Positions 13,999-21,959 of a DNA stretch of 64,000 nucleotides are shown here, piece after piece; the first letter of the stretch is position 1, and each line of letters opens with the position of its first letter. The notes beneath the pieces are model-generated. The model was not told the DNA's origin. It searched no databases and saw nothing but the letters and a program-made list of their open reading frames with translations. The DNA lies in NCBI RefSeq assembly GCF_002591915.1, contig NZ_NIHB01000007.1, forward strand, positions 32,916 to 96,915. Direction: 5' to 3'. The translations under genes and the position numbers were made by a program. Origin of the DNA: Marinicella litoralis. Lineage in GTDB: Bacteria > Pseudomonadota > Gammaproteobacteria > Xanthomonadales > Marinicellaceae.

Positions 13999-15095
13999 AT
14001 TTCGAGCCGTTTAAGATGGCTCAATTCAGTGGCCAATGGCCAGCTGGATCATTACACAATATGCACAGCAGCAACCCACAACCAATGACATGGGATGAAG
14101 TGGCTGAATTGACTCAAGTTGATGTGGTGGCTGTGCTTAAAAATGCGCCCTTAGGTTATGAGTCCTCACAAGGCAATGAAAAATTACGCCATAGCCTAAG
14201 TCTTCATTATCACAAGCAAATAAAAACCAATGACATTGTGCTTACTTCAGGCGCACAAGAAGGGATATTTTTAACCATGCATGCTTTGTTGGATCCGGGT
14301 GATCATGTGGTGGTTATAACGCCTTGTTTTGAACCTTTACACAAAGTGGCACATGATTTGGGTGCAAAGGTCAGTACCTGTCAATTAAAACCCCAAGATC
14401 AATGGCGTATAGATTGGCCTGCTTTGACTTCATGTTTAAAACCAGAAACCAAGTTATTGATTATCAATTTTCCACATAACCCAACCGGCTCACACATCAG
14501 TTCTGCTGATTTACAACGCATCGTTGAATTGTGTGAAAAGAACCATTGTTGGCTGTTTTCAGACGAAGTGTTTCGCGGCTTGGAACACCAAGTCAAGCAC
14601 AGATTAACTTCAGCAGCTGATTTGTACCACAAAGCCATAGCCATTGGGGTGGTATCAAAAGCCTTGGGGTTACCAGGCATCAGGGTGGGGTGGGTTTCTA
14701 CGCAAAATCAGTCATTGGTCGATAAAATCATGGTGATAAAATCACACCTTTCCATTTGTCAAAGCAGTTTAGATGCACAGTTGTGTCAAACACTGGTTCC
14801 ACACAGCGAACGTTTGTGGCAAAGGCATGTTGAAATCATCAAAACCAATAAAGCACTTGTAGAAAAATATTTAGATGGCCACTCACAACTTCACTGGCAC
14901 CCGCCACAAGCTTCGGCAACTGGCTTCGTCCAATTGAAAAACAAAGTGGCCGCAGGGTTTGTTGATGATTTAGCCAAGCAATCATCCATCATGGTGATGC
15001 CCAACGAGGTCTTTCTGACGCAACAACAAGGATTCAGGTTAACCCTGGGCCAAAAAGGGTCGGCTTCCCTGTTGTCGACAATTATGAAGCCCTAA
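13995..15095 (+). CDS. ovoB: PLP-dependent enzyme, probable OvoB sulfoxide lyase
   Basis: This 366-residue fold-type I PLP enzyme resembles class I/II aminotransferases. The PLP lysine is in VVSKALGLPGIRVGW (near residue 224), with the NFPHNPTGS motif before it and the DEVFRGLE aspartate between. In ovothiol synthesis OvoB is a PLP-dependent lyase that cleaves the OvoA sulfoxide product to 5-thiohistidine. The ATGA overlap with ovoA and the absence of another candidate make this role likely. Family alone cannot separate it from a general aminotransferase or cysteine-conjugate lyase. Its end overlaps the converging diguanylate cyclase gene by 14 bases. Confidence 0.78.
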   Translation: MNFEPFKMAQFSGQWPAGSLHNMHSSNPQPMTWDEVAELTQVDVVAVLKNAPLGYESSQGNEKLRHSLSLHYHKQIKTNDIVLTSGAQEGIFLTMHALLDPGDHVVVITPCFEPLHKVAHDLGAKVSTCQLKPQDQWRIDWPALTSCLKPETKLLIINFPHNPTGSHISSADLQRIVELCEKNHCWLFSDEVFRGLEHQVKHRLTSAADLYHKAIAIGVVSKALGLPGIRVGWVSTQNQSLVDKIMVIKSHLSICQSSLDAQLCQTLVPHSERLWQRHVEIIKTNKALVEKYLDGHSQLHWHPPQASATGFVQLKNKVAAGFVDDLAKQSSIMVMPNEVFLTQQQGFRLTLGQKGSASLLSTIMKP

Positions 15096-16887
15096 CCACA
15101 GCGTTACCTTTGAGCAATGAAGCATAGGAAACAACCTGATTGCGGCCTTTGTTTTTTGCTTCAAACAAAGCCAAGTCAGCGTGGGTCAACAACATCGAAG
15201 TCTTATAACCAGAAAACCCATTGCTGCTGATGCCAAAGCTGGCTGTGATGTTGAAACTGGCACCAGAAGGTGAGCAGTCTAATTCGGTGATCGCTAGGCG
15301 CATTTTTTCCATCAAAGCAATCATTTTCTGGTGAGTGATTCCAGGCGAAACAATACAAAATTCTTCGCCGCCTAAGCGTGCAATCATGATGTCGTGATCA
15401 GCTACATTTTCACAGGTAATGATGACTTCCCGCAACACCCAGTCACCGACTAAATGGCCATGCTGGTCGTTGACATTTTTAAAATGATCCAAGTCCATGA
15501 TGGCTAAATTAATGGGCTCTTGCTTTTCCTTACAGCTTGCCATCATTTGTTTCATTCGTTCTTCAAATGCTTTGCGGGTAAAGACTTTGGTCAGATGGTC
15601 AATTTCCGCCACTTCTTTAAAATAATCATGTCTTTTCTTGATTTTATAAGTCCAGACACCTAACAACAGCAAAACACTGACAATCAACAACATCATCAAT
15701 TGTTGCTTTTTCGCGGTTTCAACTGACAGCCTATTTTCTAACACCAACAGTTTATTGTTTTGATTCAATTGCTCAATCTGTAATTCTTGCGCTAAGTTGG
15801 CATGTTTGACACGATAATAAGCTACTTGGGTCGCCAATTTTCGTTCAAACACAGCCTTTTCAATCTCATTTTTCTTGGCTAAAAATAAATAAGCGGGTTG
15901 CATCGTATTGGCTTCCAGACTTAATTGAATCAGTACATTGAGCGCTAAAATCAACTGCTCTGACTCTCCAATACTGATGTTTTCTGCAATGGCCAATTTT
16001 CCATAGGACATGGCTTGCTTATTCATATCAGCAATCCAATACATATGCGCCATCAAGGCATGGTAATACACTTTGATGTTTTTAAATTGTGTTTTAATGA
16101 CCTCATCTTCTAAAGACTCCAGTGTATCAACTGCTTGCAGTGCCTGAGCCGAATCATGGCTGTCTTTTTGAGGAAATTGATAGCGAACTTGATCTAATTG
16201 TAAGAACAGCGAGGCAATGTGATTTTCAACCGCTTCACAGCGTTCAATGGCTTGTTCAATTTCATTGATGTACTCAGCGCCCTTTCCTTGCCTCATCAAT
16301 ATTCTGTATTTGTTAAAACCACCCATGCATTTGTCATCTTCAGTAAAATCACCTGAGATCAGCAAGTCTGCGTATTTTAAGGCAATTTCATCTTGATTCA
16401 TTAAGCGATACGAAATGGCAGCCACGTTATTGGTCAGTGACCTCAGGTAATCATCTTCTGTATTTTCTGTGATCTGAATCGCTGTGTTCAAATTTTTCAG
16501 CGCAGGTTCAAAATCACCTGTTATGACTTGTAGGTTCGCCAGAAACTGAACAACCCTGGCTTTGTATTCAGGTGTCTCACACAGTGCCTTGGTTTGCTTC
16601 AATGCATTGATTGATTGGGAGTAATCACCTTTATAACTTTCTTTATAAATAGACAAGTATTGATACAGACATTGCTCATCGGCTGACATGGTCGCCATCA
16701 ATGGTTGCATGGCTTCTAACTTAGCTCCAAACTCATCTTGTTGTACTTTTCGGATTTTCTCCAAATCAATGAGCTGGGCTTCCAATTGATTGATGTTTGG
16801 ATTTTGCTCACTGTCATTGATTTCGGCATAAGCAGGAGCAAAGGCCATAAAACCAGCGATTAAGAATTGTTTGAATGATTTAACCAT
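15082..16887 (-). CDS. TPR sensor diguanylate cyclase (copy 1)
   Basis: This 601-residue protein should make the second messenger c-di-GMP. It has a signal peptide or anchor (residues 1-21), a long helical TPR-like region of about 350 residues that should be periplasmic, a coiled stretch, one transmembrane helix (about 397-415) and a cytoplasmic GGDEF domain. The active-site motif is ARLGGEEFCIV, with IMDLDHFKNVND before it, so it looks catalytically intact. I see no RxxD inhibitory site just before GGEEF. Its closest visible relative is the gene at 17749-19545. It follows the peptide gene at 16945 by 57 bases, and that pairing is repeated at the second copy, so the sensor may respond to the peptide product. 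That link is an inference. Confidence 0.88.
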   Translation of the reverse strand: MVKSFKQFLIAGFMAFAPAYAEINDSEQNPNINQLEAQLIDLEKIRKVQQDEFGAKLEAMQPLMATMSADEQCLYQYLSIYKESYKGDYSQSINALKQTKALCETPEYKARVVQFLANLQVITGDFEPALKNLNTAIQITENTEDDYLRSLTNNVAAISYRLMNQDEIALKYADLLISGDFTEDDKCMGGFNKYRILMRQGKGAEYINEIEQAIERCEAVENHIASLFLQLDQVRYQFPQKDSHDSAQALQAVDTLESLEDEVIKTQFKNIKVYYHALMAHMYWIADMNKQAMSYGKLAIAENISIGESEQLILALNVLIQLSLEANTMQPAYLFLAKKNEIEKAVFERKLATQVAYYRVKHANLAQELQIEQLNQNNKLLVLENRLSVETAKKQQLMMLLIVSVLLLLGVWTYKIKKRHDYFKEVAEIDHLTKVFTRKAFEERMKQMMASCKEKQEPINLAIMDLDHFKNVNDQHGHLVGDWVLREVIITCENVADHDIMIARLGGEEFCIVSPGITHQKMIALMEKMRLAITELDCSPSGASFNITASFGISSNGFSGYKTSMLLTHADLALFEAKNKGRNQVVSYASLLKGNAVVRAS

Positions 16888-16944
16888 TAAATAAAAAGTG
16901 CCCGTGAATTTTCAAAGGCACTGTGTCATGATATTGAATTGATA

Positions 16945-17106
16945 TCAATCGTCGTCATCACCAGGATGGTGTGCACACTTAAGCTCGTTGTCTAGCGATA
17001 ACAACTGCTGCACTTGATCATCCGATAATTGACTTGCAATCTGGTTATTTTGATGAACAGAGTCGGTTTGACCTATGTTTTCTAATATTTTTACTGGTTT
17101 ATTCAT
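16945..17106 (-). CDS. Putative borosin-type precursor peptide 1 (53 residues)
   Basis: This short gene is easily missed. I chose ATG 17106 because AGAGGTG lies just upstream; a longer frame to 17160 has no such site. The peptide has a leader with LENIGQTDSVHQ, a helical middle (SDDQVQQLLSLD) and an end NELKCAHHPGDDDD. The peptide at 19570 shares LE-x-IGQT-x-S-x-x-Q, then N-(D/E)-L-x-C, then P followed by four or more Asp, so the two are related. Both sit directly before a TPR-GGDEF gene, and the same run contains a borosin-type peptide N-methyltransferase. I infer a modified-peptide precursor whose core lies around the cysteine. This core is less hydrophobic than that of peptide 2, so it may be diverged or a poorer substrate. 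Confidence 0.72.
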   Translation of the reverse strand: MNKPVKILENIGQTDSVHQNNQIASQLSDDQVQQLLSLDNELKCAHHPGDDDD

Positions 17107-17182
17107 AACACCTCTATTGTGATTTTTAAAAATAAATTGCTGGCACCTCAATGCCAACAATCAATCTATTCTAACATCAATT

Positions 17183-17731
17183 TTATCGAAAATTCGAATC
17201 AATCCATGACGACTTTTCGATTGACCATTCTTGAGATAACTGTTGATTAACACCGGCTTTAATTTGCCTGCCTTTAAGTAATTTTAAGTACTCATTGGCT
17301 GCATTTGCAGCCACATTATTTATTTGACAAAATGCATATACCACATCAATTTTAAAATCTTCAAAAGCCGCACTTATCATCATCTTTTTGCTTTGATGCC
17401 CCCAATACTGACGTCGCCAATCGGGAGATATCATGATGCCAACTTCAGCAACACCCCGGTTATTTTGATCAAACCATGTCAAACCAGTGATACCAATTTT
17501 ATCTTGCTTATCCCCATGAACAATCACATAAGTCAGATGATGAGGATCTGGTGTCTGCATGACTTTGATTGTTTCATGCAATTGTTTATTGGCCTGGGCT
17601 TTAGTTAAGGGCCTGCCTATGTATTGCATGATGTCTTGATTGCTATACATTGCATAAAAGAAATCCATATCCGATTCATCCAAGGGCTTAAGGATGATTG
17701 GAACATTTGGCTTTGAGATGACAGAACGCAA
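17183..17731 (-). CDS. GNAT-family N-acetyltransferase (copy 1)
   Basis: This 182-residue protein has the GNAT fold, which moves an acetyl group from acetyl-CoA to an amine. The acetyl-CoA loop appears in the ISPDWRRQYWGHQSKKMM region, and INNVAANAANEYLKLL is the usual helix-4 region. It is related to the gene at 20584: both start LKPL-x-E-x-D, then IM-x-x-IG-x-x-LT-x-x-QAN. The start is TTG at 17731; no ATG is in frame near it and the ribosome site is poor, so coupling to the gene ending 17 bases upstream is likely. It lies between diguanylate cyclase 2 and peptide 1. Substrate unknown; acetylation of the modified peptide is one option. Confidence 0.85.
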   Translation of the reverse strand: MRSVISKPNVPIILKPLDESDMDFFYAMYSNQDIMQYIGRPLTKAQANKQLHETIKVMQTPDPHHLTYVIVHGDKQDKIGITGLTWFDQNNRGVAEVGIMISPDWRRQYWGHQSKKMMISAAFEDFKIDVVYAFCQINNVAANAANEYLKLLKGRQIKAGVNQQLSQEWSIEKSSWIDSNFR

Positions 17732-17748
17732 TTGACTGAAAAATGGAA

Positions 17749-19545
17749 CTATGTCCTACCCTGTAATGTTTTGAATTTGACCACCTGATTGCGACCGTGT
17801 TTTTTGGCATCAAACAAAGCCACATCGGCATGGGTTAATAACAGTGGCAAAGAATAACCTGAAGTCACTGACGAAGTGTAGCCAAAACTGGCTGTGACTG
17901 AAAGTTTAGCGCCTGACTCTGAACAATCCAAAGTTTCAATGGCAGAACGCATCATTTCTAATTTGTTTCGCATCGTTTCACAATCCACATCCGCCATCAC
18001 AATACAAAATTCCTCACCACCCAAGCGCGCTAAAATCATATTTTCCTCGACCAATTCTTTGATGGCATAAACGACGTTTTTCAACACCCAGTCACCAATC
18101 AGATGGCCATGACTGTCATTGACGTTCTTGAACAAATCTAAATCCATGATGGCTATATTGATGGGGCTGTTGGTTTTTTCACAATTTTCCAATTGGACTT
18201 TTACTTGTTCCTCGAATGCTTTGCGAGTTAACACCTTGGTCAAATGATCAATTTCTGACACGTCTCTGAAATAATCATGCCTTTTCTTGATTTTGAATAG
18301 CCATAAAACCATCATAGCCAAAACAGTTAAAATCAATAAAATGATCAACCTTTGGTTATTGGCTTCTTGGTTAGCTAACTTTTTCTCAAGTTCCAACACT
18401 TCTTTTTGCCGGTTCAATTGCTCTATTTCAAAAACCTTGGCTAAATTTGAATGCTTAACCGCCATAAACGCCATCTGCTTGGCTTGTGTTTCGTCATACA
18501 TACTCAATTGAGTTTTGTTTATTTTCTTCAAATAATTATATGAAGATTGGAAGTCTCCATTGTCCTTAGAAACCTTCTCCAACACCTCCAATGCCATAAT
18601 CAGTTGTTCAGTATTTCCTAAATCTTGATTCAACTTCAATGCATTTAAAGCATGACTCTGAGCCAACTTATTTTCACTCTTAAACCAATAAAATTTAGCT
18701 TTAATCGCAGCGAATATACCAAGTATGTTTTTATAAGGACTGTTTTGAATTTCTGCATCAATGTTACGAATTTCAGCTTCAATTTCGCCCAATGCATTTT
18801 CATCCAATCTGTCCTGAGCCAATTTCCATTTAATGTTATCTAAAATTAAGAATTGACTGTATAACAAATTACCACTGCTTTTACATTGTCCAGACATCTC
18901 TTTAATTTCAGAAAATTCTTTTGGTGGGTTATTACCATCTAAATGATGCACATTACTGCTGTAATGCAAATGACACAAATTTTTATCTGTCGGTTCAAGG
19001 TTGTACAAAAGTTCAGAATACTTAACACCTAACTCTCTTTGATCCAATAAATTATAAACAATAGCTGCCGCTGAATAAGCTAACGTTTTGGTTGTTGTAT
19101 CAGCTGTTTGTTCGGCATTTTGGATCACCAAATCAATATGATTAGAAGCTTTTAAATAATTTCCACCAATCACAGATATATTAGCAATCAAGGCATTCAG
19201 CCTTACCCTTACTCTTAAATCATCACAGCTTGGAATCAAATTTTCCATTACCTTAATTGCTTGCTTAGATTCTCCTTTAAATGCTTTTTGATATGCCCTT
19301 AAAAATGCATAATGACATTGTTGATAAGATGACATTTTCATTTGTTCAAAAGCCAATGCATCTAAACCATCACCAAATAATTGAGGATTGTTAATTCTCA
19401 ACGATTCCAGCCTTAATAATTCATCAGTGATGTATTGCGGTTCACCAGATGATTTTACTGAAATTTGAGCAAAAGAAGTACAGACACACAAAAAGAGCAT
19501 GAAAACTAAACATGCTCTTCTATTCCAATCTATCTCTTGAATCAT
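17749..19545 (-). CDS. TPR sensor diguanylate cyclase (copy 2)
   Basis: This 598-residue protein has the same plan as the gene at 15082: N-terminal signal or anchor (about 8-26), periplasmic TPR-like region, coiled coil, one transmembrane helix (about 400-418) and a GGDEF domain with ARLGGEEFCIV. The stretches KIKKRHDYF, SEIDHLTKVLTRKAFEE and NVNDSHGHLIGDWVL are nearly identical in both, while the sensor halves are much more divergent. This suggests duplication followed by sensor divergence. It follows peptide gene 2 by 24 bases and ends 17 bases before GNAT copy 1. It should be an active c-di-GMP synthase. What the periplasmic half senses is not known. Confidence 0.88.
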   Translation of the reverse strand: MIQEIDWNRRACLVFMLFLCVCTSFAQISVKSSGEPQYITDELLRLESLRINNPQLFGDGLDALAFEQMKMSSYQQCHYAFLRAYQKAFKGESKQAIKVMENLIPSCDDLRVRVRLNALIANISVIGGNYLKASNHIDLVIQNAEQTADTTTKTLAYSAAAIVYNLLDQRELGVKYSELLYNLEPTDKNLCHLHYSSNVHHLDGNNPPKEFSEIKEMSGQCKSSGNLLYSQFLILDNIKWKLAQDRLDENALGEIEAEIRNIDAEIQNSPYKNILGIFAAIKAKFYWFKSENKLAQSHALNALKLNQDLGNTEQLIMALEVLEKVSKDNGDFQSSYNYLKKINKTQLSMYDETQAKQMAFMAVKHSNLAKVFEIEQLNRQKEVLELEKKLANQEANNQRLIILLILTVLAMMVLWLFKIKKRHDYFRDVSEIDHLTKVLTRKAFEEQVKVQLENCEKTNSPINIAIMDLDLFKNVNDSHGHLIGDWVLKNVVYAIKELVEENMILARLGGEEFCIVMADVDCETMRNKLEMMRSAIETLDCSESGAKLSVTASFGYTSSVTSGYSLPLLLTHADVALFDAKKHGRNQVVKFKTLQGRT

Positions 19546-19569
19546 TAATACGTTCTAACGAGTGGTTGG

Positions 19570-19749
19570 TTAATCCTCGTCGTCATCGTCTGGAAACAGC
19601 ACGCATACTAAATCATTATTTTGTGCTTTTAGTTTATCAAATGCGTGATCACTATATTTAGCAACCTCAAACATTTTATCAACCGAATCAAACTGCTGTA
19701 TTGATTGTGTTTGTCCTATTTTTTCTAACATTGAAATGTTAATTTTCAC
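19570..19749 (-). CDS. Putative borosin-type precursor peptide 2 (59 residues)
   Basis: The start GTG at 19749 is supported by GAGGTG four bases upstream. An internal ATG seven codons in is an alternative. The peptide has a leader LEKIGQTQSIQQ, a helical middle and an end NDLVCVLFPDDDDED. The hydrophobic LVCVLF block just before an acidic tail is what a borosin core would look like, since those enzymes methylate backbone amides of hydrophobic, often branched residues near the C-terminus. It lies 52 bases downstream of the methyltransferase stop and 24 before a TPR-GGDEF gene. It is related to the peptide at 16945. It is not similar to any family I can name beyond this arrangement. Confidence 0.75.
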   Translation of the reverse strand: MKINISMLEKIGQTQSIQQFDSVDKMFEVAKYSDHAFDKLKAQNNDLVCVLFPDDDDED

Positions 19750-19801
19750 TGGTCACCTCACTTTTTAGTTAATAAAATTATTATTCTTTATCGCAAAAAT
19801 C

Positions 19802-20584
19802 TTAACACGACTCATTAATCGACAACAACTCATTTATTTTTTGGTCATTTTTAGATTTTTCGATTGCTGGCGGAATCACCAATGTTGTTTTCAACGTCAT
19901 GTCAGCTTGAGCCAAATCTCTTAAGGAAAGCCAATCCGCTTTGAATCTTTCAATGGGTAAGACTGCGCATTCATACAGTGCCACTTGGTGATCTGCCGGA
20001 TAAAAGTCTAACAACATGTTCACCAATAATTGTTTGGCTTTTTCACTGGTCTCAAAAACCTTCAAACTGCGGTCACCGGCAATCCCTATTTGCCAAAGAA
20101 TCAAGTAAGCACTTGGATCAAACTTGGTTTGATTGAACATGAAGTTATTCGCTTCAAAATGAGCACATCCGAAGGTCCCAGGATCAATTCCCAAATCAGC
20201 ATACAAACAATCCTCTGCAGATACCCCTGGTTCCATATGGGCCCTAAAACCTTCTGCCCGAGCCATCTTGATGGTTTCATGCGGGGTTAATGCAAACACC
20301 CCAGGGTGTCCGTAAAAAGCGCCCACCACCTTTTTACCTGCACGCACTTGACTCATGATGGCTTCATTCATTTCTGCATAGGTTTGCTTGCGTGATTTTC
20401 CCTCTGCATACAATGACTGTAGGCTGGTGACATTGTCATTCATGGTAGCCACCCATTCTTCGACCAATTGATTGGAAGCAGCAACGAACACAACGTCGGC
20501 TTGTTCTATAAAATGCCTTGATAAGGGTGTGATGTGCGAACCCAAAGTCATACCCAAGCCCACATTGACTAAACTGCCTTTCAT
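19802..20584 (-). CDS. Borosin-type peptide alpha-N-methyltransferase (tetrapyrrole methylase fold)
   Basis: This 260-residue enzyme belongs to the tetrapyrrole methylase fold and matches, by eye, the catalytic domain of the fungal omphalotin enzyme OphMA and the free-standing bacterial SonM type. The GKSRKQTYAEM block, VVGAFYGHPGVF and PGVSAEDCLYADLGIDP are close to the corresponding OphMA stretches. Tyr59, Arg65, Tyr69 and Tyr91 line up, with one constant offset of seven, with catalytic residues I recall for OphMA (Tyr66, Arg72, Tyr76, Tyr98). Unlike OphMA there is no fused core peptide, so the substrate must be separate; the peptide gene 52 bases downstream is the obvious choice. The start codon overlaps the stop of the upstream GNAT gene by one base (TAATG), so the genes are coupled. 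Confidence 0.9.
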   Translation of the reverse strand: MKGSLVNVGLGMTLGSHITPLSRHFIEQADVVFVAASNQLVEEWVATMNDNVTSLQSLYAEGKSRKQTYAEMNEAIMSQVRAGKKVVGAFYGHPGVFALTPHETIKMARAEGFRAHMEPGVSAEDCLYADLGIDPGTFGCAHFEANNFMFNQTKFDPSAYLILWQIGIAGDRSLKVFETSEKAKQLLVNMLLDFYPADHQVALYECAVLPIERFKADWLSLRDLAQADMTLKTTLVIPPAIEKSKNDQKINELLSINESC

Positions 20585-21084
20585 TATTTAAGTAACTCCA
20601 TATTAAAATCCCACCGGATGAGGTTAAGATGTTTGGTTAATTTAGATGTGTTCTCAACAGGCACAAAACCCATCTTTTTATAACTGGTGTTGGCAGCAAC
20701 ATTGTCACCGCTGATATAAACCGTACACACTTTAACCGGAAAAATATTTTTTACCAAATGCAGGGCTTCCATTTGCGCCCAACGACAAACACCTTGGTTT
20801 TGAAAAGTGGGCAAAATAATCATGCCTGATTCAATGTGACATGACTCAGCTTTCCAATGCATACTTAACAACCCCACCCTTTGCTTGCCATCGGCCGTCA
20901 TAATCACTTGATAGATTGCTTTGTTTTTATCTGCTTCCGCCCTCATTTTACCACCCAGGCCATTTGCTTGGTGGTCGGTTAAAACGGCGCCAATGTGACG
21001 CATAATGACAGGGTTTTGGTACAAAACGATGACGAAAGTGTCATCAGTTTCTGACAGCGGTTTTAATTTAAAAGTCATGGTCAT
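20584..21084 (-). CDS. GNAT-family N-acetyltransferase (copy 2)
   Basis: A GNAT protein of about 166 residues and the first gene of the borosin-like run. I prefer ATG 21084 (AGGAT seven bases before it) over the longest frame to 21144, which would leave only 11 bases to the divergent mtfA-like gene. Signature parts are LKPLSETDD at the start, the acetyl-CoA loop near LPTFQNQGVCRWAQME and the GDNVAANTSYKKMGF helix-4 segment. It is related to the gene at 17183. It ends within the start codon of the methyltransferase, which suggests the two act together. The acetyl acceptor is unknown. Confidence 0.86.
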   Translation of the reverse strand: MTMTFKLKPLSETDDTFVIVLYQNPVIMRHIGAVLTDHQANGLGGKMRAEADKNKAIYQVIMTADGKQRVGLLSMHWKAESCHIESGMIILPTFQNQGVCRWAQMEALHLVKNIFPVKVCTVYISGDNVAANTSYKKMGFVPVENTSKLTKHLNLIRWDFNMELLK

Positions 21085-21155
21085 ATTATCCTGGTAACTT
21101 GTCTCAGCTTTGCCTATCGATATGATACTATAAACCAAAACCACGCAGAAAAACC
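21085..21155. promoter_or_regulatory. Divergent promoter region, borosin-like run and mtfA-like gene
   Basis: These 71 bases separate two divergent genes and must hold the promoters for both. An AT-rich block (ATATGATACTATAAACC) contains -10-like sequences on both strands. No operator repeat is clear. Confidence 0.4.
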
Positions 21156-21959
21156 ATGTCCCAAACCTACCTCATTTTATTGATTATTTTGTTGTTATTA
21201 ATCTCATGTACTTGGCTGTATATGTGGCACAAAAAACAAAAAAGAAATCAAACTTTCAAGCTAGAAACACCTGCGCAATGGGTGACTTATATCAAAAACA
21301 ATGTGGCCATCTACCATTTCCTACCGCAACATTTACAACAAGAGCTTTTGGGGCATGTGAATGTGTTCCTTGCAGAAAAATACTTCTCCGGGCATGCAGG
21401 TTTAACCGTAACTGATGAAATGCGTGTGACCATAGCAGCCCAAGCCTGTTTGTTGTTATTGAATCGTAAGCACAATTATTTCACCCATTTAAAAACCATC
21501 ATGATCTACCCTGCCGGTTTTAAAAATCCCAAACATGAAGGCCCTGGTCATCATTTAGGAGAGTCCTGGGTTCGCGGCCCTGTGGTGCTGTCTTGGAATG
21601 ATGTTAAACATGGCGGCATGAATGCCAAGGATGGAACCAATGTGGTGATACATGAATTTGCCCACCAACTTGATCAAGCCGATGGTGCCGGTGATGGCCG
21701 GCCATTGATTGAAGGGGGACAGCTGAGAACGTGGGGTAAAGTTTTAAGTAAAGAATTCAGCAGTTTAAAAACCAAAGCCAAACTCAGGAAACGTACTTTT
21801 TTTGACCATTATGGTGCAACCAATCCCGCTGAATTTTTTGCAGTCATCAGTGAGCATTTCTTTGAACAGCCCAAAACGTTCAGCCGCAAACACCCTGATT
21901 TATACCAAACCCTTAAAAACTACTACAAGCTGGACCCTGTTACTTGGCTGATTACCTGA
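21156..21959 (+). CDS. mtfA: MtfA-like zinc peptidase (M90 family)
   Basis: MtfA in E. coli is a zinc aminopeptidase that binds the glucose-system repressor Mlc (DgsA). This 267-residue protein has an N-terminal membrane helix (about 4-22), so it is probably membrane tied, unlike soluble E. coli MtfA. The zinc motif is VVIHEFAHQLDQADG, with a downstream AEFFAVISEHFFEQP glutamate region. The family core MIYPAGF is present. It is divergent from the borosin-like run and shares its promoter region. No sugar PTS genes are nearby, so the Mlc role cannot be assumed. Confidence 0.88.
   Translation: MSQTYLILLIILLLLISCTWLYMWHKKQKRNQTFKLETPAQWVTYIKNNVAIYHFLPQHLQQELLGHVNVFLAEKYFSGHAGLTVTDEMRVTIAAQACLLLLNRKHNYFTHLKTIMIYPAGFKNPKHEGPGHHLGESWVRGPVVLSWNDVKHGGMNAKDGTNVVIHEFAHQLDQADGAGDGRPLIEGGQLRTWGKVLSKEFSSLKTKAKLRKRTFFDHYGATNPAEFFAVISEHFFEQPKTFSRKHPDLYQTLKNYYKLDPVTWLIT

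Follow-up and report, generated by a model that had tools for sequence, protein, structure and literature searches.

A split-borosin operon of Marinicella litoralis with two precursor peptides, two predicted TPR-sensor diguanylate cyclases and a possible role in peptide signaling

Described borosin systems and the Marinicella operon

The closest described systems to the locus treated here are the fused fungal borosins of the OphMA type, whose core peptide lies in the same chain as the catalytic domain, and the type IV split borosin SonM/SonA of Shewanella oneidensis, in which the methyltransferase and the precursor are separate proteins (described in the available part of PMC8429565). In that part of this 2021 study, no type IV split-borosin pathway had yet been tied to a final natural product. 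In this article, we describe a predicted split-borosin operon of Marinicella litoralis. The window, that is, the whole stretch of DNA analysed, is 64,000 nucleotides long (NZ_NIHB01000007.1, positions 32,916 to 96,915) and is part of contig C19 of a 3.35-Mb genome that is 99.66% complete. With a probability of roughly 0.47, we read the operon as producing N-methylated peptides that serve as ligands of predicted periplasmic tetratricopeptide repeat (TPR) cyclases and control the synthesis of cyclic di-GMP (c-di-GMP).

A reading from the sequence only had placed a candidate borosin locus with a new gene set at 16945..21084. Each of its genes was found at the given positions in the list of open reading frames (ORFs), and the operon extends past this interval: seven co-directional genes on the minus strand occupy 15082-21144. 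The intergenic spacing is 17 to 76 bases, except for a 1-base overlap between the second acetyltransferase gene and the methyltransferase start. In the direction of transcription, followed by a divergent neighbor, the genes are:

20584..21144, minus strand: GNAT acetyltransferase 2 (Pfam Acetyltransf_3, E 3.1e-10), whose stop overlaps the methyltransferase start by one base
19802..20584, minus strand: predicted SonM-type peptide backbone alpha-N-methyltransferase (split borosin), 260 amino acids, assigned by phmmer, YRYY residues and tree
19570..19749, minus strand: precursor peptide A, 59 amino acids, starting with GTG, with an acidic tail after the predicted core DLVCVLFP; assigned by the precursor model and homologs P0122-P0128
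17749..19545, minus strand: predicted TPR-sensor diguanylate cyclase 1, 598 amino acids (Pfam GGDEF, E 4e-35; AlphaFold model; fold match)
17183..17731, minus strand: GNAT acetyltransferase 1 (Pfam Acetyltransf_3, E 2.2e-19)
16945..17106, minus strand: precursor peptide B, 53 amino acids, predicted core ELKCAHHPG followed by DDDD (precursor model, E 1.3e-16)
15082..16887, minus strand: predicted TPR-sensor diguanylate cyclase 2, 601 amino acids (Pfam GGDEF, E 1.7e-35; TPR_12, E 2.2e-4, below the cut-off)
21156-21959, plus strand: M90 peptidase gene, adjoining the operon and divergent from it

Comparison with the SonM/SonA locus

The window operon is the same kind of locus as SonM/SonA and is not a new gene set, because a homologous TPR-GGDEF gene follows sonA as well. 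At the SonM/SonA locus (L153), the methyltransferase is 100% identical to SonM over the 244 residues used, and the precursor shows no difference from the solved SonA in the stretch compared. Methyltransferase, SonA and a 596-amino-acid TPR-GGDEF protein lie in a row, the last only 3 bases after SonA. The GGDEF domain of this protein is clear (E 1.3e-38) and its TPR_2 match is weak, below the cut-off; the protein is homologous to cyclase 1 of the window (29% over 458 amino acids, E 3e-45). In the available part of PMC11395268, a figure legend on borosin architectures likewise names a GGDEF domain. The sequence-only reading was thus right about the borosin enzyme, and the cyclase partners, which it took to be foreign to described borosin pathways, are not new. 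One open library yielded no paper on borosins together with c-di-GMP, and the TPR-GGDEF link may therefore have been described before elsewhere.

Both loci have a separate methyltransferase and precursor, the same four active-site residues, a precursor directly downstream of the methyltransferase, and a TPR-GGDEF gene next. The window is a variant of this arrangement. Its precursors are shortened to 53-59 amino acids, compared with 71 in SonA, and their cores contain a Cys and have an acidic tail. They lack a recognizable SonA domain: window-type precursors give no LigA/BBD match in Pfam, and their profile has no match in the PDB. In addition, the window has two precursors, each with its own cyclase and both sharing one methyltransferase, plus the GNATs. 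Six methyltransferase copies in the SonM family, 50-55% identical to SonM (L162-L165, L167, L168), resemble the window in combining a GNAT with the methyltransferase. Five of them also have a TPR-GGDEF protein (L162 is cut by a contig end), one per locus, unlike the two of the window.

The methyltransferase

The methyltransferase contains GKSRKQTYAEM, FYGHPGVF and PGVSAEDCLYADL, the motifs from which an OphMA-type catalytic domain had been recognized, and carries no fused core. In a phmmer search of all solved structures, its best match is SonM (238 bits), and fungal OphMA-type chains match at 150 to 159 bits (about 155), which bears out this homology with the fused borosins, whereas the window core is separate. 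At E 0.001, the solved-structure matches are SonM, OphMA-type enzymes and one weak chain named Scone-E, with no cobalamin or siroheme enzyme among them. Y59, R65, Y69 and Y91 align with Y58, R67, Y71 and Y93 of SonM, which are active-site residues according to the available part of PMC8429565. These positions are YRYY in 87 of the 89 relatives' methyltransferases. L102 and L104, which depart from this pattern, are perhaps not borosin enzymes.

The enzyme also has the broad Pfam TP_methylase domain, as do two other proteins of the genome, which we take to be CysG-like and RsmI-like from their length and motifs. A search of the genome with the methyltransferase sequence returns the methyltransferase alone. 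None of its seven NCBIfam matches reaches its cut-off, and no tetrapyrrole cut-off is reached. In a 19-row tree, the 17 rows of borosin type, SonM included, are split from the CysG-like and RsmI-like rows with support of 98/98; the branches to these two rows are very long, and they form the outgroup without any Cbi/Cob enzyme. The search against OphMA/SonM and tetrapyrrole methylases and the phylogeny, both proposed as checks with the sequence-only reading, thus place the enzyme with the borosin enzymes. By these comparisons, 19802-20584 encodes a backbone N-methyltransferase of the borosin type, with methylation itself predicted. Its nearest named relatives are Marinicella species, with 79% identity.

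The precursor peptides

The two small genes belong to one conserved family. A hidden Markov model built from 15 precursors, including the two of the window, finds 41 precursors in 35 of 41 sources (the window and 40 loci), and 26 of these were not used in building the model. It also joins precursors A and B as homologs, and precursor A has seven further database homologs (P0122-P0128). The reading of the two genes as chance ORFs is rejected by the homologs and by the conservation of the family over many bacterial families. The peptide lying 52 bases downstream of the methyltransferase had been proposed as the substrate, with the peptide at 16945-17106 as a possible second. The 52-base gap (19750-19801) is confirmed, and both peptides are plausible substrates.

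In most precursors from the genus and family of the window, LExIGQxxS is found near the start, the core is centred on a Cys, and a Pro and an acidic tail are present. The core Cys is invariant in the 16 rows aligned. In the wider order, it is often absent (for example, in L054, L060 and L064). Two types of core are distinguished: type A, DLVCVLFPDDDD, and type B, CxHxPGDDD. The window, L031, L032 and L034 each contain both. Type B is common to precursor B and L031, L032, L033 and L034. The precursors of L162, L163 and L165 have a longer leader than those of the window. The cores of L163 and L165, from distant genomes (PDVVCVLFPAEEE and PDIFCALFPAED), are near-identical to the DLVCVLFPDDDD of the window.

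A direct profile match between window-type and SonA-type precursors was not found (1.2%). Profile comparison links the window type to wider-order precursors (95.1%, E 3e-8) and the latter to the SonA type (97.7%, E 2e-12). The window precursors are best read as probable shortened descendants of the SonA type, connected through these intermediates. The AlphaFold model of precursor A is poor (predicted local distance difference test, pLDDT, of 61) and was not used.

Other forms of precursor are seen in the surveyed loci. In L055, L056 and L137, methyltransferase and precursor share one open frame with no stop between them, which is either a fused borosin or merely a long GC-rich frame. ORFs that resemble precursors and repeat core-like units (YFCxVxTPEE; VFAA) occur at L119:5902-6333 (plus strand) and L140:5506-5787 (methyltransferase strand).

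The predicted TPR-GGDEF sensors

The two GNATs and two TPR-GGDEF proteins that the sequence-only reading noted hold up as GNAT and GGDEF proteins, with all four domains above the Pfam cut-offs; the sequence evidence for the TPR part is weaker. Pfam finds no TPR in cyclase 1, and TPR_12 reaches 21.8 bits in cyclase 2, with a cut-off of 30.1. In the AlphaFold model of cyclase 1 (pLDDT 82.8), the TPR part is visible. The predicted parts are a signal helix (7-24), TPR helices (37-328), a long helix with a transmembrane segment (332-436) and the GGDEF domain (431-587). Cyclase 2 is a sister of cyclase 1 with 38% identity. The GG[DE]EF signature is present in the cyclases, and from the form GGEEF an active cyclase is predicted.

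A Foldseek search with the model of cyclase 1 has GGDEF entries among the 50 matches listed. In a further fold comparison, the sensor resembles peptide-binding TPRs, among them RapF of the RRNPP peptide receptors, and the predicted superhelix aligns with RapF in its peptide-bound structure, a likeness of fold only. From this fold similarity, the sensor is predicted to form a TPR superhelix of a peptide-binding kind. RapF is a cytoplasmic protein that is not known to carry a GGDEF domain, whereas the TPR of the window is predicted to be periplasmic and is tied to a diguanylate cyclase. By hydropathy-based topology, all 38 of the paired cyclases have their TPR sensor located outside the cytoplasm.

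Conservation of the neighborhood

A total of 109 methyltransferase loci (89 and 20), not randomly drawn, were surveyed. The first 40 are 40 of the 42 matches outside the own genome at E of 1e-37 or better; two fragments of G030 and four weak matches at about 1e-4 were left out. Nine further loci come from a class sample (E 5e-16 or better), nine from a phylum sample outside the order, 31 were picked from the list of matches in the order, and 20 from the SonM-family list. Of the 299 genomes of the order, 144 carry the methyltransferase (E 1e-15). In the class sample, it occurs in 11 of 370 genomes with a threshold of E 1e-15 and in 21 with E 1e-3, and in the phylum sample in 13 of 299 genomes. 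With SonM as the query, 119 of 146 genomes of its family have a match (E 1e-30). A separate scan of genome contigs yielded two loci only.

For 38 of the 41 precursors, a full-length cyclase (582-672 amino acids) is next on the same strand, with no intervening ORF of more than 150 amino acids; at the remaining three (L033, L038, L047), the locus leaves the contig end. In 90 of the 109 loci (71/89 and 19/20), the methyltransferase has a GGDEF protein no more than 1.5 kb away, a count made on the GGDEF domain alone. The 19 were read from the gene list; in L155 and L171 the protein is in two frames, and in L161 its GGDEF domain scores weakly, at 34 bits. In three loci (L096, L097, L112), a TPR histidine kinase alone stands beside the methyltransferase. 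The cyclase of L140 is at 1.8 kb. Five loci are truncated by contig ends (L033, L038, L047, L070, L162). No GGDEF protein was found within 1.5 kb in nine loci (L067, L099-L104, L113, L119), of which L067 has a 918-amino-acid GGDEF frame at 1.8 kb. At L066:7788-10364 (plus strand), a single 859-amino-acid frame joins TPR, GGDEF and a borosin-type methyltransferase; provided that the assembly is correct, this is a natural fusion.

Two variants of the sensor were seen in addition. The kinase of L096, L097, L098 and L112 is a hybrid histidine kinase with a TPR sensor, which replaces the cyclase except in L098, where both are present. At L161:7438-9300 (plus strand), a TPR protein adjoins the methyltransferase and precursor, and its GGDEF domain is perhaps degenerate.

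Possible function of the peptides after predicted methylation

In the proposed mechanism, one SonM-type methyltransferase would N-methylate the C-terminal cores of both precursors. The peptide would then be trimmed and brought across the membrane, where the modified form would bind the periplasmic TPR sensor of the neighboring cyclase. Binding would control c-di-GMP synthesis by the GGDEF domain of the sensor, in either direction. This signal reading is based on gene order and conservation: the precursor lies directly before the cyclase in the window and its near relatives, and core type goes with sensor clade, two distinct cores pairing with two distinct clades. The same trio is present at SonM/SonA, and the L066 frame joins TPR, GGDEF and methyltransferase.

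Several observations weigh against peptide signaling. There is no transporter or protease among the seven genes in the ORF list and by Pfam, the M90 peptidase being only adjacent and on the other strand. Precursor and cyclase numbers are unequal in at least 10 of the 40 wider-order loci and are not one to one. TPR-GGDEF paralogs linked to sucA have no precursor. In the genus, G012 has a TPR-GGDEF protein at the syntenic site (L145:6410-8215, minus strand) without methyltransferase, GNAT or convincing precursor. Among the genus genomes without a methyltransferase match, contig ends truncate the site in G010 and G015, G011 lacks a full TPR-GGDEF match, and G012 counts as a true counter-example.

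The alternative that survives best, itself unlikely, is that the peptide is secreted as a natural product, perhaps a metal-binding or antimicrobial one, and that the TPR cyclase regulates its production or senses something else. Known fungal borosins are natural products, and biosynthetic clusters often contain regulators. The Cys and acidic tail of the cores, together with the His of type B, could bind metal, and the unequal numbers in the wider order also fit this explanation. The lack of an exporter or protease counts against a secreted product as well, and so do the separate cyclase for each of the two precursors in the window's family and the core types that follow the sensor clades.

It is more doubtful still that the precursor is an intracellular, unprocessed protein partner of the cyclase, or that methylation tunes a protein-protein contact, with no extracellular signal. 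No signal peptide is seen on the precursor sequences, covariation with the sensor is greater for the leader than for the core, and the L066 frame places methyltransferase and GGDEF on one side of the membrane. Such a partner is at odds with the predicted topology, in which every paired cyclase has its sensor outside the cytoplasm. That the enzyme is an ordinary tetrapyrrole methylase beside chance ORFs is highly improbable and is rejected, despite the broad TP_methylase domain, by the NCBIfam cut-offs, the structure matches, the tree and the conserved precursor family.

Peptide signaling remains our preferred reading for the window. More tentatively, gammaproteobacterial split borosins in general could be a peptide-signal system, in which a transmembrane TPR receptor with c-di-GMP output (a histidine kinase in other lineages) has a backbone-N-methylated peptide as its cognate ligand. 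Signal and receptor would then duplicate and diverge as a pair, with one methyltransferase in common. If so, N-methylated ribosomal peptides would be an added class of signals, and c-di-GMP cyclases would gain a genetically linked ligand. What makes these loci interesting is that precursor and TPR sensor are kept together, which hints at a function open to testing: since the pairing is found in most loci examined and at SonM/SonA, the function of bacterial borosins becomes directly testable in S. oneidensis.

Acetyltransferases and the adjoining peptidase gene

GNATs recur in borosin loci. They are found within 1.5 kb of the methyltransferase in 33 of the 89 loci, 18 of these 33 in the window's own family, and in 6 of the 20 SonM-family loci, all six beside the copies 50-55% identical to SonM. 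As a guess, they acetylate the precursor peptide. The M90 peptidase gene adjoins the operon in 7 of the 40 relative loci, all of the same genus.
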